From Chryseobacterium gleum (GTDB taxonomy: Bacteria; Bacteroidota; Bacteroidia; Flavobacteriales; Flavobacteriaceae): a DNA stretch of 64,000 nt. The notes under the pieces are model-generated. The model searched no databases. It was given only the letters and a program-made list of their open reading frames with translations, and was not told the origin of the DNA. The DNA lies in contig CAMCVI010000003.1 of NCBI GenBank assembly GCA_945881885.1, positions 1 through 64,000 on the forward strand, written 5' to 3'. Positions 4,889 to 63,973 of this stretch are shown in pieces (position 1 is the stretch's first letter; each line of letters opens with the position of its first letter). The translations under genes were made by a program, and so were the position numbers.

Positions 4889-5003
4889 CCTTAACGTAAT
4901 CTTTTTTTAAAGTAATCTCTTATTTGTTGAACCACAACAGGTTAGAAGTGACGATTTCTTAGAAAAAAAATTCAAAGACATAATTCTTATGGAAATAATT
5001 GCC

Positions 5004-5104
5004 ATAGCCCTGATTGGAGCGGCATCCTTTTTGTATAATGGACTTTATTTTTCTTAAAGACAATTATACAAAAAGATAGAGCGGAAAGCAGGATGAGCTG
5101 CTAT
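5004..5104 (+). ncRNA. structured RNA candidate, possibly Flavo-1-like
   Basis: Nested complementary blocks are visible. ATAGC (5004-5008) pairs with GCTAT (5100-5104). CCTG (5009-5012) pairs with CAGG (5089-5092). A perfect 12-bp stem joins TTTTTGTATAAT (5028-5039) and ATTATACAAAAA (5063-5074). The single-stranded parts include GGAGCGGCATCC and AGATAGAGCGGAAAGC. An alternative hairpin AGCAG/CTGCT overlaps the outer stem. The look of the GGAGCGGCATCC and GCGGAAAGC boxes recalls intergenic elements that recur in Flavobacterium genomes and perhaps the Flavo-1 RNA motif, but this is from memory. It ends before the thrS promoter, so it is probably not part of the thrS leader. Confidence 0.5.
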
Positions 5105-36319: not shown

Positions 36320-37315
36320 CTAATCCAACTTCTCGGTTAATTTACTAAACACCGCTTTGGCATTTTTACCCTCGTATAAAATTTGATATACGGCTTCAAT
36401 TATTGGTGTTTTTGCTTTATATTCTAAATTTAAATTATAAGCACTTTTACAAGCATAATAGCCTTCCGCAACCATACTCATTTCCATTTGAGCGGATTTT
36501 ACGGTGTAGCCCTTGCCTATCATGTTTCCAAACATTCGATTTCTTGAAAAAACAGAATATCCAGTTACTAACAAATCGCCCAAATAGGCAGAATCGTTAA
36601 TGTTACGTTTCATTTTATGGACTTTTCGAATGAATTTTTTCATTTCACGGATGGCGTTACTAATTAAAACAGCTTGAAAATTATCTCCGTATCCCAAACC
36701 ATGAGCAATACCCGCTGCAATAGAATAAATATTTTTTAAAACTGCCGCATATTCGGTTCCAACAATATCATCAGACGTTTTAGTTTTTATATAATACGAT
36801 GCCAAATTTTTGGCTACATACCTTGCTTTTGTTTTATCAGAACACGCAATAGTTAAGTAAGACAAACGCTCTAATGCCACTTCTTCTGCGTGACAAGGCC
36901 CAGTAATTACTCCAATATTATCGTAGGGAATATTAAATATTTCATGAAAATGTTCCCCTACAATCAAACTAGTTTCTGGTACAATTCCTTTAATAGCAGA
37001 AAAAATTATTTTTCCTTCTAAAGATGCCGTCATTTTCTCTAATTCAGCACTTAAAAAAGCGGATGGGATAGCAAAAATTATAATGTCAGCGAATTGTATG
37101 GCTTCATTAATATCGTTTGTTAATTGTAATTTATTAGTATCAAAAGCTACTGAACTTAAATAATTAGGATTGTGTTTTTGAAGTTTTAAATGCTCTAAAG
37201 CATAAGTGTTGCGCATGTACCAAGCTATTTTTGCTTGATTTTCACATAACATTTTTGCAATAGCTGTTGCCCAACTTCCGCCTCCTATAACTGCAAATTT
37301 TTTATTGCTTTCCAT
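36320..37315 (-). CDS. gpsA: glycerol-3-phosphate dehydrogenase [NAD(P)+]
   Basis: Makes sn-glycerol 3-phosphate from dihydroxyacetone phosphate for phospholipid synthesis. The 331-residue protein has the nucleotide-binding motif AVIGGGSWATAIAKML (8-23), FAIPSAFL, GPCHAEEVALER, and the catalytic-lysine region GTEYAAVLKNIYSIAAGIAHGLGYGDN. It has its own probable promoter. The 3' end runs towards priA with no clear terminator, so read-through into priA is possible. Confidence 0.95.
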   Translation of the reverse strand: MESNKKFAVIGGGSWATAIAKMLCENQAKIAWYMRNTYALEHLKLQKHNPNYLSSVAFDTNKLQLTNDINEAIQFADIIIFAIPSAFLSAELEKMTASLEGKIIFSAIKGIVPETSLIVGEHFHEIFNIPYDNIGVITGPCHAEEVALERLSYLTIACSDKTKARYVAKNLASYYIKTKTSDDIVGTEYAAVLKNIYSIAAGIAHGLGYGDNFQAVLISNAIREMKKFIRKVHKMKRNINDSAYLGDLLVTGYSVFSRNRMFGNMIGKGYTVKSAQMEMSMVAEGYYACKSAYNLNLEYKAKTPIIEAVYQILYEGKNAKAVFSKLTEKLD

Positions 37316-37334: not shown

Positions 37335-37342
37335 CAAAAATA
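37335..37342 (-). promoter_or_regulatory. gpsA promoter -7 box
   Basis: The minus-strand TATTTTTG matches TAnnTTTG, 19 nt before the gpsA ATG. Confidence 0.45.
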
Positions 37343-37439
37343 CACTTTTCAACAACAAAAAACAATATCAAAATTCAATATCAATTTTAGAGCTAATAAT
37401 CCTGAAAAAAGTGTTAATTATTTGTGAAGAGTAACTTTA

Positions 37440-37455
37440 TGGCACGGCTTTTGAA
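37440..37455 (+). promoter_or_regulatory. sigma-54-like -24/-12 promoter
   Basis: TGGCACGGCTTTTGAA matches the sigma-54 pattern TGGCAC-N5-TTGCA with the invariant GG-N10-G spacing. The only deviation in the core is GA in place of GC at -12. A start site near 37466 would begin a transcript that contains no gene and ends at the hairpin of 37519-37558. A sigma-54 activator is encoded nearby (46426-47589). Confidence 0.5.
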
Positions 37456-37465
37456 AATACTTTTA

Positions 37466-37558
37466 ATATAGTTTAAAAATAATAAAAGTTAGGTTAGTTA
37501 GTAGTTTTTTTGCATGTAAAAAGCGTCACAGGATTTATTTCTTGGACGCTTTTTTTTA
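37466..37558 (+). ncRNA. candidate small RNA under a sigma-54-like promoter
   Basis: The segment runs from the predicted sigma-54 start to a strong plus-strand terminator and is about 93 nt long. It has an A-rich 5' half, then GTTAGGTTAGTTAGTAG, then a U-rich patch and a start-stop pair AUG-UAA (37514-37519), then the terminator stem. No open frame of useful length exists on the plus strand. The next plus-strand gene is 6 kb away, so a leader is unlikely. Confidence 0.45.
37519..37558. terminator. strong bidirectional terminator (sRNA candidate / alcohol dehydrogenase)
   Basis: Stem AAAAGCGTC (37519-37527) pairs with GACGCTTTT (37545-37553), extended by CAGGA/TCTTG around a TTTATT loop with one bulged A. 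A run of eight or more T follows on the plus strand, and an A/T run on the other side serves the minus-strand dehydrogenase ending at 37593. Confidence 0.8.
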
Positions 37559-37592
37559 CTTTTCACTTTTTACTCTTCACTTTTCACTTTCA

Positions 37593-38759
37593 TTAATAAC
37601 TCATTTCAACAATTTCTTTTACTTTTTCTAAAGTAATGTTTTGTTTCTCACCCAAAGCTTTCCAGCCTCTTTCTTCAAAGCGATTTACAATGAAATTAGC
37701 GGTGTCAGAATAATTTGTAGTAGCTTGAGAAAGTTTGGTTTCCATTCCCATTTCTTCTAAAAACGATACTAATTTGTCTATAGCTTTTTCAGCAATTTCT
37801 TCAGTTGAATTTCCTTTTAAATTAAAAACTCTTTCTCCAAATTGAGCTAATTTTTCTTTTTTAGAATCAAACATCACTCGGTATAAATTCGGACCGATAA
37901 TCGCTAATGTTCTAGCGTGATCAATTTCGTACAATGCAGTTAATTCATGGCCAATCATATGTGTTGCCCAATCTGATGCTACGCCTTTTTGAATTAAACC
38001 ATTTAAAGCCATAGTAGCACACCACATAAAGTTAGACGCTAATTTATAATCGGTTGGGTTTTCAACTACTTTTGGTCCAATTTTAACTAAAGTTTGTAAA
38101 ATTCCTTCAGAAATTCGGTCTTGCAACATGGCATCTTGTGGATACGTTAAATATTGCTCTAAAACATGTGTAAAAGCATCTACCACTCCGTTTTGAAGTT
38201 GTCTTTTAGGTAACGATTGAATTACCGTTGGATCACAAATAGAAAATTGAGGAAACAAAGCACTTCCGCCTAAAGTTAGTTTTTCTTGTGTAGCTTCTAT
38301 GGTAATTACAGCGCCAGAATTCATTTCAGAACCTGTAGCAGGTAATGTCAAGACAGTTCCAAAAGGAATTACTTTTGAAATATCTTTAAATAAAATTCTG
38401 TTTTTAAAAATATCAACTGCATTTCCTTCATAATTAACAGCACCTGAAATAAATTTTACGCCATCAATTACGCTTCCTCCGCCTACAGCTAAAATAAAAG
38501 TAATTTTTTCAGCACGAATGATTTCTACGGCTTTCATTAGTGTTTCAAAACGTGGATTGGGTTCAATACCGCCAAATTCAATAATCTCAAAACCTCTTAA
38601 GTGTTCACAAACTTGAGCATGAATGCCATTTTTAAAAATACTGCCACCGCCATAGGCTAAAAGTACTTTTGCATTAGCTGGAATTAAATTTGTTAATTTT
38701 TCTATTTGATTTTTACCAAAAATATAATTGGTAGGATTGTATAACTCGAAGTTTAACAT
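37593..38759 (-). CDS. iron-containing alcohol dehydrogenase (YqhD/butanol dehydrogenase type)
   Basis: NAD(P)H-dependent reduction of aldehydes. The 388-residue protein has LAYGGGSIFKNG and AVGGGSVIDGVKFISGA for the nucleotide, and TLPATGSEMNSGAVIT. The metal ligands are D and H in GVVDAFTHVLEQYL (about 194 and 198) and the His residues in WATHMIGHELTALYEIDHARTLA (about 267 and 281). The closest recognised subfamily is YqhD/BDH, which scavenges toxic short-chain aldehydes. A near -7 box (TACCTTTA) lies upstream. It is a single-gene unit. Confidence 0.92.
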   Translation of the reverse strand: MLNFELYNPTNYIFGKNQIEKLTNLIPANAKVLLAYGGGSIFKNGIHAQVCEHLRGFEIIEFGGIEPNPRFETLMKAVEIIRAEKITFILAVGGGSVIDGVKFISGAVNYEGNAVDIFKNRILFKDISKVIPFGTVLTLPATGSEMNSGAVITIEATQEKLTLGGSALFPQFSICDPTVIQSLPKRQLQNGVVDAFTHVLEQYLTYPQDAMLQDRISEGILQTLVKIGPKVVENPTDYKLASNFMWCATMALNGLIQKGVASDWATHMIGHELTALYEIDHARTLAIIGPNLYRVMFDSKKEKLAQFGERVFNLKGNSTEEIAEKAIDKLVSFLEEMGMETKLSQATTNYSDTANFIVNRFEERGWKALGEKQNITLEKVKEIVEMSY

Positions 38760-43617: not shown

Positions 43618-44169
43618 ATGATTTATAAGTTTAGAGCCATTTTAGACAATGAAGAAGATATTTTTAGAGATATTGCTATTGATTCAAAAGATAACTTAGA
43701 AGATTTTCACAATGCTTTAGTAAATGCATTTGGTTTTGATGGATCAGAAGTAGCTGCGTTTTATACTTGTGGAGAAGACTGGGCTTGGCACGAAGAAGAC
43801 GGTATCCCAATGTTTGATACTGGAGATATTCCTGGAGAAATAAAAACAATGGCAGAGTATAAATTGGATGATTTAGTCCATGAGCAAAACACTAAATTAG
43901 TGTATGTTTATGATTTATTCTCGATGTGGACCTTTTTTGTAGAATTAGCTTCTATCGAAAAAAACAAAGAAGAAACAATTTATCCTGCATTATTATTTTC
44001 TCACGGCGTCTTACCTGAAGAAGCAACAACTAGTGGATTTAGAGGCGGCGATTTGGAAAATGAAGATTTGTTTAATGAATTTGAAGACGACTTAGATCAA
44101 GATGATTTAGATATGTTTGATGGCGATGATAGTTTCGAAGACATGGGATTTGAAGAAAACTGGAATTAG
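43618..44169 (+). CDS. pRiA4b ORF-3/IS1096 TnpR-like family protein
   Basis: A 183-residue soluble acidic protein. The N-terminal half matches the plasmid pRiA4b ORF-3 fold (IYKFRAILDNEEDIFRDI, NALVNAFGFDG, YTCGEDWAW, LVYVYDLFSMWTFFVEL), a family once linked to IS1096 passenger genes but widely found as a stand-alone chromosomal protein. The C-terminal 35 residues are extremely acidic (EFEDDLDQDDLDMFDGDD), probably disordered. There is no transposase nearby. The function is unknown. Confidence 0.82.
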   Translation: MIYKFRAILDNEEDIFRDIAIDSKDNLEDFHNALVNAFGFDGSEVAAFYTCGEDWAWHEEDGIPMFDTGDIPGEIKTMAEYKLDDLVHEQNTKLVYVYDLFSMWTFFVELASIEKNKEETIYPALLFSHGVLPEEATTSGFRGGDLENEDLFNEFEDDLDQDDLDMFDGDDSFEDMGFEENWN

Positions 44170-46425: not shown

Positions 46426-47589
46426 TTATTTAGAAGCAAACAAAGTTACATCATTTTCAGAGATTTCGTTACCTCCAAGGATAATTAAACGCTCTACAAC
46501 ATTTCTTAATTCTCGAATATTTCCTGTCCAATCATATTCTTGCAATAATTGAATGGCTTGTTTTGAAAACATTTTTTTTGCAGTTCCTTGTTCTTCAGAA
46601 ATTTTGGAAGCAAAATGTTCTATCAGCATTGGAATATCATCTCGTCTATAATTTAAAGCAGGAACATTAATTAAAATTACTGCTAATCTGTGGTATAAAT
46701 CTTCTCTGAAACGTCCTTCTGCAATTTCTTTTTTTAGATCTTTATTGGTTGCAGCAATCACACGAACATCTACTTTTATATCTTTATCTGCGCCAACTCT
46801 TTGAATTAAATTTTCTTGTAAAGCTCTTAATACTTTGGCTTGCGCCGACAAACTCATATCGCCAATTTCATCTAAGAAAATTGTTCCGCCGTTTGCGGCT
46901 TCAAATTTTCCAGCTCTATCTTTAACTGCCGAAGTAAATGCGCCTTTTACGTGTCCGAATAACTCACTTTCAATTAACTCTGAGGGAATAGCAGCACAAT
47001 TTACTTCAATAATGGCTTGTTGTGCACGATTGCTTTTTTCGTGTAATTGGTGTGCAACTAATTCTTTACCTGTTCCGTTTGGACCTGTAATTAAAACTCT
47101 TGCGTCGGTTTGTGCAACTTTTTCAATCATGGTTTTAATATGTGAAATGGCTTCACTTTCACCAATCATTTCGTAGTTTTTAGACACTTTCTTTTTTAAG
47201 ATTTTGTTTTCTACAACCAATTGCTTTTTATCTAAAGCATTTCTAACTGTGTTTAATAAACGATTCAAATCTGGTGGTTTGGAAATATAATCAAAAGCGC
47301 CTAAACGCATCGTTTGAATTGCAGTTTCTAAATCACCATGACCAGAAATCATGACCATTGGAATTTCAGGTTTTATTTTTTTTATAGCTTCTAACACCTC
47401 AACGCCATCCATTTTTGGCATTTTGATATCACATAAAATCAAATCGAAATCTTCGTTTTTTACCAATTCAATTCCTTGCAAACCGTCTTCAGCTTCTTGT
47501 ACCGAATACGTATCATTTTCTTCCGATAAAATTTTATTTAAAACGCGTCTAATTGGCGCTTCGTCTTCAATGATTAGGATTTTGCTCAT
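46426..47589 (-). CDS. sigma-54-dependent response regulator lacking a DNA-binding domain
   Basis: A 387-residue NtrC-type activator. The receiver domain (1-120) has D54 in LILCDIKMPKMDGVE. The AAA+ domain (about 140-375) has Walker A GPNGTGKE (169-176), the sigma-54 contact loop GAFTSA (216-221), Walker B TIFLDEIGDM, and the arginine-finger region REDLYHRL. It ends at NEISENDVTLFASK just after the AAA+ lid. The usual C-terminal Fis-type helix-turn-helix is missing. It should thus activate sigma-54 polymerase from solution or through a partner. No histidine kinase is adjacent. Confidence 0.92.
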   Translation of the reverse strand: MSKILIIEDEAPIRRVLNKILSEENDTYSVQEAEDGLQGIELVKNEDFDLILCDIKMPKMDGVEVLEAIKKIKPEIPMVMISGHGDLETAIQTMRLGAFDYISKPPDLNRLLNTVRNALDKKQLVVENKILKKKVSKNYEMIGESEAISHIKTMIEKVAQTDARVLITGPNGTGKELVAHQLHEKSNRAQQAIIEVNCAAIPSELIESELFGHVKGAFTSAVKDRAGKFEAANGGTIFLDEIGDMSLSAQAKVLRALQENLIQRVGADKDIKVDVRVIAATNKDLKKEIAEGRFREDLYHRLAVILINVPALNYRRDDIPMLIEHFASKISEEQGTAKKMFSKQAIQLLQEYDWTGNIRELRNVVERLIILGGNEISENDVTLFASK

Positions 47590-63653: not shown

Positions 63654-63746
63654 TTTTTTAATTTAAATTTTTTCCAAAATGGGAGAAAAGCACAGAATTA
63701 CCCATACCCAAACCTTTTTTCCCGAAAGTTTGATACTCAATGAATA

Positions 63747-63900
63747 TGGCAGGTCTCCTGGCTTGCCTATTAGTGTCTTCCTTCCCATCCTATTTTACTA
63801 GAACAGTGGATTTGCAGATAACACTAACGTTTAATAGCATACAGTTGCGGGAACAGCTCAGGTTTTACACCTGATTCCCTTTTAATGATTATTCTATGTT
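63747..63900 (-). promoter_or_regulatory. cobalamin riboswitch
   Basis: The minus strand carries the B12 box GCCAGGAGACCTGCC (63749-63763), preceded by GGATGGGAAGG, the usual neighbour of the kissing-loop core. Towards the 5' side lie CTGTTCCCGCAACTG and the paired GGGAATCAGGTGTAAAACCTGAG. It starts about 94 nt upstream of the btuB ATG. In this class, bound adenosylcobalamin blocks translation or transcription of the uptake gene. Which of the two applies here is not clear. Confidence 0.92.
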
Positions 63901-63973
63901 ATAGAACATCAACCAAAATTCGAGTGTAAATGTAATTTATTAAAAATTAAAATCAAACTATGTAAATATCTTT

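Follow-up and report, generated by a model that had tools for sequence, protein, structure and literature searches.

The 64,000-nucleotide stretch analysed here (contig CAMCVI010000003.1, positions 1 to 64,000; hereafter the window) carries an unusual unit between gpsA and the gene for an iron-containing alcohol dehydrogenase (ADH). We read positions 37440-37557 as a reasonably likely sigma-54-driven small RNA (sRNA) gene, which would have formed when deletion of a lipoprotein open reading frame (ORF) joined its promoter to a conserved 3′ untranslated region (UTR) and terminator. Both flanking genes are on the minus strand, gpsA (36320..37315) diverging from the unit and ADH (37593..38759) converging on its terminal hairpin.

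The predicted sigma-54 promoter is the -24/-12 element TGGCACGGCTTTTGAA (37440-37455, plus strand), in which the GG at -24 (37441-37442) and the G at -12 (37453) are separated by ten bases and which agrees with the consensus TGGCAY...TTG, as the initial annotation had recognized from the GG-N10-G spacing. On its 5′ side lies a conserved box, TTAATTATTTGTGAAG (37418..37433, plus strand), seen in two related genomes, G103 and G409, and in altered form in four lipoprotein loci of relatives (L163-L166). The predicted sRNA spans 37466..37557 on the plus strand, its start being placed 12-13 nt past the -12 element, and the covariance model R2 (described below) matches at 37473-37560. No usable frame is present over the ~92 nt after the promoter, which include a conserved unpaired 3′ module (GTTAGTTAGTAGTTTTTTT..., 37490..37517, plus strand) matching the lipoprotein 3′ UTR of L163-L165, followed by a terminator hairpin with a T run (37518..37557, plus strand) indicated by the fold and by covariation over 62 aligned modules. 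The hairpin itself, AAAAAGCGTC...GACGCTTTTT (37518-37554), has an inner stem CAGGA/TCTTG and one bulged A, with eight T at its 3′ end (37550-37557); an A run on the opposite side lets the predicted terminator serve ADH too. The fold of 37466-37562 reaches -19.5 kcal/mol compared with a shuffled mean of -12.6 (z -2.48; 3 of 200 shuffles equal it), nearly all of this stability coming from the terminator.

Sequence and fold therefore agree with the earlier description of a frameless stretch ending in a two-part, bulged terminator with eight T. The nearest plus-strand gene is indeed 6 kb away, as had been stated, with the next downstream ORF (at least 80 amino acids) beginning at 43618, and a leader was rejected on account of this distance. 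The AUG-UAA pair that had been pointed out is present at 37514-37519 but is not conserved, its ATG being absent in G409, so a start-stop peptide was rejected as well. A known Rfam RNA was also rejected, since the window search against Rfam 15 gave no match at 37440-37560 at the gathering score or at E ≤ 1; across our own locus and seven related loci there were four weak matches, none overlapping the window's module.

A lipoprotein gene in the relatives and its probable loss

In a gpsA scan of named genomes, from which the best 80 loci were kept, Flavobacterium difficile was nearest by gpsA. This species and one metagenome-assembled genome carry the -24/-12 element in the same place, on the strand opposite gpsA, in the order -24/-12 element, lipoprotein gene (~295 codons), ADH. 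Near relatives including F. difficile have a lipoprotein gene between gpsA and ADH, and behind it the GTTAGTAG...AAAAGCGTC hairpin as in the window. A profile of this lipoprotein gave 12 strong and 4 weak partial matches among 299 genomes of the genus Flavobacterium; all 12 strong loci adjoin gpsA and 11 also adjoin ADH. The -24/-12 element precedes the gene in 10 of the 12 by a regular-expression search, with L173 an 11th by eye and L174 having none. Among Flavobacteriaceae at large, the lipoprotein is present in 190 of 299 genomes and 156 of 236 genera (profile, E ≤ 1e-20). The 30 best-scoring of these 190 genomes had their loci fetched, and in every one the lipoprotein gene diverges from gpsA and is preceded at 46-92 nt by a -24/-12 element; none of the 30 fetched stretches showed ADH. 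Most simply, the lipoprotein gene with its sigma-54 promoter is ancestral. In the window's own genome, the genus and family-wide searches gave no profile match to the lipoprotein.

The gene most likely was deleted in the window's clade. Positions 37495-37557 align with the lipoprotein 3′ UTR and terminator of L163 (F. difficile), L164 (genome G188), and L165 (genome G112), and none of 300 shuffles reached the score of 37466-37560 against the 3′ end of any of these three; the 3′ end of L166 gave no significant similarity (13 of 300 shuffles). Toward the promoter, the highest-scoring local alignment covers the -24/-12 element for L165 only; for L163, L164, and L166 it lies in a block next to gpsA, and the likeness of these three promoter regions to the window was judged by eye.

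Relatives were searched at the DNA level without the CTTTTCACTTTT-type repeat just downstream, which had swamped a first search. Some match at E ≤ 0.001 was found in 52 of 398 genus genomes, and near-full-unit matches only in G103 (95% identity) and G409 (86%); a second draw of 397 genomes, largely the same set, gave no further near-full-unit match. The window's genome and its two sister species, G103 and G409, all keep the promoter, ~25 unconstrained bases, and the 3′ module with its terminator, and all lack the lipoprotein ORF. The recurrence of this ORF-less arrangement in G103 and G409 makes an error of assembly improbable. In a tree of gpsA proteins, built from 66 of 116 rows (every lipoprotein and deletion row, and each second one of the others), the three genomes group with support 99/91 and stand beside F. 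difficile and G188 (100/96), then the other lipoprotein-bearing rows. As the trio is nested within the lipoprotein-bearing clade, the ORF was most simply lost once in its ancestor.

The lipoprotein itself had no match in Pfam or NCBIfam. Its AlphaFold model has a mean pLDDT of 77 and a single PDB match below E 0.001, to a DUF4822 protein, which at a TM-score of 0.24 is too weak for naming a function. Many public records call it (L053:1613-2500 and relatives) a nicotinic acid mononucleotide adenyltransferase, a name that we read as a misnomer. In G061, gpsA and the lipoprotein gene are separated by a stretch that holds a Flavo-1 RNA (48.3 bits, L168:2482-2555).

A predicted genus-wide gpsA-ADH RNA behind other promoter-like boxes

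The 3′ module is not confined to loci with the -24/-12 element. We compared 78 distinct gpsA-ADH intergenics of ≤500 bases, of which 3 are of the deletion type, 7 are short or hairpin-less, and 68 bear the hairpin, mostly with a recognizable module. The -24/-12 element occurs in all 3 deletion-type intergenics, in 0 of the 68 hairpin-bearing others, and in 0 of the remaining 7, whereas the boxes CAAT-N16/17-CGTT occur in 62 of the 68 and in none of the 3 or the 7. Their spacing is 16 in 52 cases and 17 in 10; over the range 8 to 27, no other spacing has more than 5 cases. Identity across 19 close relatives is 95% and 91% in the two boxes, compared with 43% in the spacer, 58% in the upstream stretch, and 76% in the RNA body. 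The arrangement looks like a promoter of the extracytoplasmic-function (ECF) type and may be of the same kind as the SM6 motif of Flavobacterium psychrophilum, which has a CGT box near -10 (PMC9723704). By its description in that paper, the sRNA Rfp11 (start site at 182564) has an ECF-type promoter (SM6, CGT box), like the one that the relatives with ECF-like boxes may have.

For the RNA itself, 82 modules were located and near-duplicates thinned to 67; leaving out L166, whose hairpin differs most, and L086, L097, L107, and L108 gave an alignment of 62. In it, 10 of 14 stem pairs are changed on both sides (113 cells, compared with 34 in shuffles). A covariance model of all 62 modules (R1) matched, at any location, 186 of 199 genomes of the genus with E ≤ 0.01 and 125 with E ≤ 1e-6; second matches at other loci reach ~54 bits. 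Among 199 genomes almost all of other genera, 113 matched at E ≤ 0.01; apart from our own and one same-genus genome, the best E value was 9.7e-6, for G562, and this match is a lipoprotein 3′ UTR.

The model R2 was built from 50 sequences, with both the window's clade and all lipoprotein-bearing rows excluded. Its top match in the window's genome is the window locus, at 57.8 bits (genome-wide E 1.6e-6), ahead of a runner-up at 40.5 bits, and it scored 56.3 bits in G103 and 47.6 in G409. Lipoprotein 3′ UTRs scored 50-67 bits if from clade B and 35-49 if from clade A; no score above 20 bits came from the deep lipoprotein loci L131, L173, and L174, and among the 30 other-genus loci only that of G562 (L215, 49.5 bits) stands out. 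The window unit thus has its 3′ sequence and terminator in common with an mRNA (L163-L165; R2), as do 3′-UTR-derived sRNAs. In the clade-B lipoprotein ORFs (L167-L172), CAAT-N17-CGTT occurs within the 3′ part of the ORF and may be an ECF-type promoter embedded there for a 3′ RNA; in a scan for such boxes inside lipoprotein ORFs, the clade-B matches were only partly consistent in position.

Conservation after the probable ORF loss and competing explanations

The initial annotation had staked its reading on promoter and terminator being conserved as a unit in related genomes, and they are, at 95% in G103 and 86% in G409. To set a baseline, the unit (37418-37555) was compared with the pooled four-fold sites of gpsA and ADH. 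Between our own genome and G103, 131 of 138 unit positions are identical compared with 182 of 247 four-fold sites (p 4e-8); between our own and G409, 112 of 138 compared with 144 of 250 (p 1e-6); and between G103 and G409, 115 of 137 compared with 144 of 245 (p 2e-7). Part by part, in the same order of pairs, the signal is borne by the core -24/-12 element (16/16, 14/16, 14/16), the 3′ module (28/28, 24/28, 24/28), and the hairpin (36/37, 33/37, 34/37), and DNA past the terminator is hardly alignable (7/33, 13/33, 7/28). Since the module is kept without its ORF, this end of the RNA may have a function of its own, and the predicted RNA was probably once a 3′-UTR RNA that was kept after the ORF was lost.

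Several observations weigh against an sRNA gene. The first 24 nt of the predicted RNA are near neutral (21/24, 14/24, 16/23), the excess of the unit over all synonymous third positions is weak (p 4e-4, 0.04, 0.02), and conservation in the 89 nt adjoining gpsA is close to that of the unit (85/89, 77/89, 79/89). This block holds the predicted gpsA promoter, TATTTTTG (37335..37342, minus strand), which fits the sigma-A -7 box TAnnTTTG (consensus from PMC9723704), and part of the excess of the unit may be general to the intergenic region; this block tempers our confidence in the main reading and in the broader scenario given below. The predicted RNA has a single confident hairpin (fold of 37466-37562), which may be conserved partly, or only, as the ADH terminator. 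An RRM_1 protein, as RNA-binding partner, is absent from the window's genome. Lastly, a profile of the unpaired part alone (nhmmer, 94 hits to E 10) recovers neither the window nor clade A, and of the six clade-B lipoprotein 3′ UTRs it recovers five, at E 0.04-1.8 only; the window is therefore linked to the genus-wide family by hairpin and module jointly and by synteny.

Some of these points also fit a relic, that is, a dead promoter beside a hairpin kept only as ADH terminator, with any RNA functionless. Conservation is highest in the hairpin, whose runs suit both strands, and the near-neutral start, the weak excess over synonymous sites, and the equally conserved gpsA-side block all fit. Against a relic, all three deletion species retain the promoter core and the unpaired module, the -24/-12 element is kept in none of the 68 other ORF-less intergenics, and many ORF-less relatives keep the module with promoter-like boxes of their own. 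We consider this explanation rather unlikely, and we continue to favor an sRNA gene left by ORF deletion.

The unit could also be the gene for Rfp36, a putative sRNA mapped in F. psychrophilum (start site at 840245) behind a sigma-54 (SM4) promoter (PMC9723704), in which case only its origin would be new. Rfp36 resembles the window RNA in genus, in being a putative sRNA, and in its -24/-12 promoter, a likeness drawn from its main-text description, which gives neither neighbors nor sequence. However, the main text of PMC9723704 nowhere places Rfp36 beside gpsA, and the other ORF-less Flavobacterium intergenics are without a -24/-12 element, so we regard identity as improbable. The existence of Rfp36 nevertheless tempers the statement of the initial annotation that it knew of no RNA like this one: a sigma-54-driven putative sRNA is already reported in F. 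psychrophilum, and it might be the same as the window's. As described in the same paper, Rfp18 differs in having at least three stem-loops compared with the one confident hairpin here. No description of the gpsA-ADH RNA was found in the literature searched (PMC9723704, PMC9438474, PMC11697453, PMC5682007, PMC9331221), with supplements and most subscription papers outside its scope. One exact-pattern scan of viral contigs gave nothing to indicate a viral origin.

Sigma-54 in the genome and a proposed history of the RNA

The window's genome encodes RpoN once. With three mismatches allowed, 0.67 such -24/-12 sites are expected by chance per shuffled window, and TGGCAYRNNNNTTGNW has 20 sites genome-wide compared with 2 for the reversed control pattern; many of the 20 lie inside ORFs, 8 are outside ORFs of more than 300 bases, and 5 of these 8 have a same-strand ORF within 350 nt. 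As motif sites are also expected by chance, the case for the promoter rests on conservation and not on the motif alone, and a chance motif was rejected because the element is conserved across relatives. In the genome scan, sigma-54-like sites lie 17 nt ahead of an OmpH/Skp gene, 25 nt ahead of the gene of a TonB-receptor plug protein, 27 and 69 nt ahead of two predicted secreted or lipoproteins, and 218 nt ahead of a succinyl-CoA ligase gene; those 25-69 nt before the plug protein and the secreted or lipoproteins are at G000:C13:42488 (L044), G000:C15:5493 (L046), and G000:C7:10169 (L039). Skp is also in the published F. psychrophilum sigma-54 list (PMC9723704). Although such sites precede protein genes, as with OmpH/Skp, we give hardly any credence to a coding purpose, either a short-peptide mRNA or reading past the hairpin, as the unit has no usable frame, its ATG-TAA pair is missing in G409, and a strong terminator follows with the next plus-strand ORF 6 kb off.

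A candidate activator is encoded 9 kb from the unit, a response regulator (46426..47589, minus strand) with receiver, sigma-54 AAA+, and lid domains (Pfam). It had been described as lacking a DNA-binding domain, and no helix-turn-helix match was found for it in Pfam.

We propose that the ancestral state was a sigma-54-driven lipoprotein gene diverging from gpsA, and that, near the base of Flavobacterium, this gene would have acquired the module as its 3′ UTR. Two or more losses of the ORF would have followed in which the module stayed, one accompanied by ECF-like boxes and one being the deletion in the window's clade, which would have set the promoter directly beside the 3′ UTR and terminator. 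RNA polymerase with sigma-54, activated by an AAA+ protein under envelope or protein-quality stress, would produce an RNA of ~92 nt ending at the terminator shared with ADH; the stress input is suggested because the published F. psychrophilum sigma-54 regulon concerns protein-quality and envelope stress (PMC9723704). The RNA may use its conserved unpaired stretch to regulate other messages in trans, an action we infer by likeness to MicL and other 3′-UTR-derived sRNAs. The broader scenario, in which an RNA in the 3′ UTR of an ancient sigma-54 lipoprotein message outlived its host gene through at least two ORF losses, one with a switch to an ECF-type promoter and one onto the host's own sigma-54 promoter, keeping RNA and stress input while dropping the protein, is plausible but put forward tentatively. 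The sigma-54 sRNA reading of the initial annotation stands as to the element and the conserved unit, but it had missed that the promoter is that of a lipoprotein gene absent here, the match of the 3′ half to the 3′ UTR and terminator of this gene in relatives, and the module behind ECF-like boxes widely in the genus.

Among known systems, MicL is a sigma-E-driven, 3′-UTR-derived sRNA from cutC, and the MalH/MicX pair illustrates the same location both with a promoter of its own and lacking one (PMC9438474). The window RNA is like them in taking an mRNA 3′ end and using the mRNA's terminator, but here there is no host ORF, and the RNA would follow immediately on the promoter of the host gene. 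Should the RNA be made and active, it would be a natural case of an mRNA tail becoming a free-standing sRNA through loss of the coding sequence, with the mRNA-borne, ECF-boxed, and sigma-54-driven arrangements all found in living species. It would also represent a Flavobacterium RNA family at a fixed location and without an Rfam entry, and the predicted sigma-54 promoter, present at all 30 loci fetched from other genera, opens a little-known regulon to direct testing.

A few further observations were made along the way. In G011, a near-identical TTTGGCACAGCTTTTGAAAATA (L013:1501-1546) lies ahead of a small protein predicted to be secreted, a further candidate for control by sigma-54. Between the terminator and ADH, a CTTTTCACTTTTTACTCTTCAC-type repeat (37553-37591) recurs in our own and related genomes, at some places as overlapping runs. 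Flavo-1 (RF01705), a flavobacterial sRNA family to which the unit at 37440-37560 has no match, is present elsewhere in the window, at 5002-5099 on the plus strand, and a cobalamin riboswitch lies at 63731-63932 on the minus strand.
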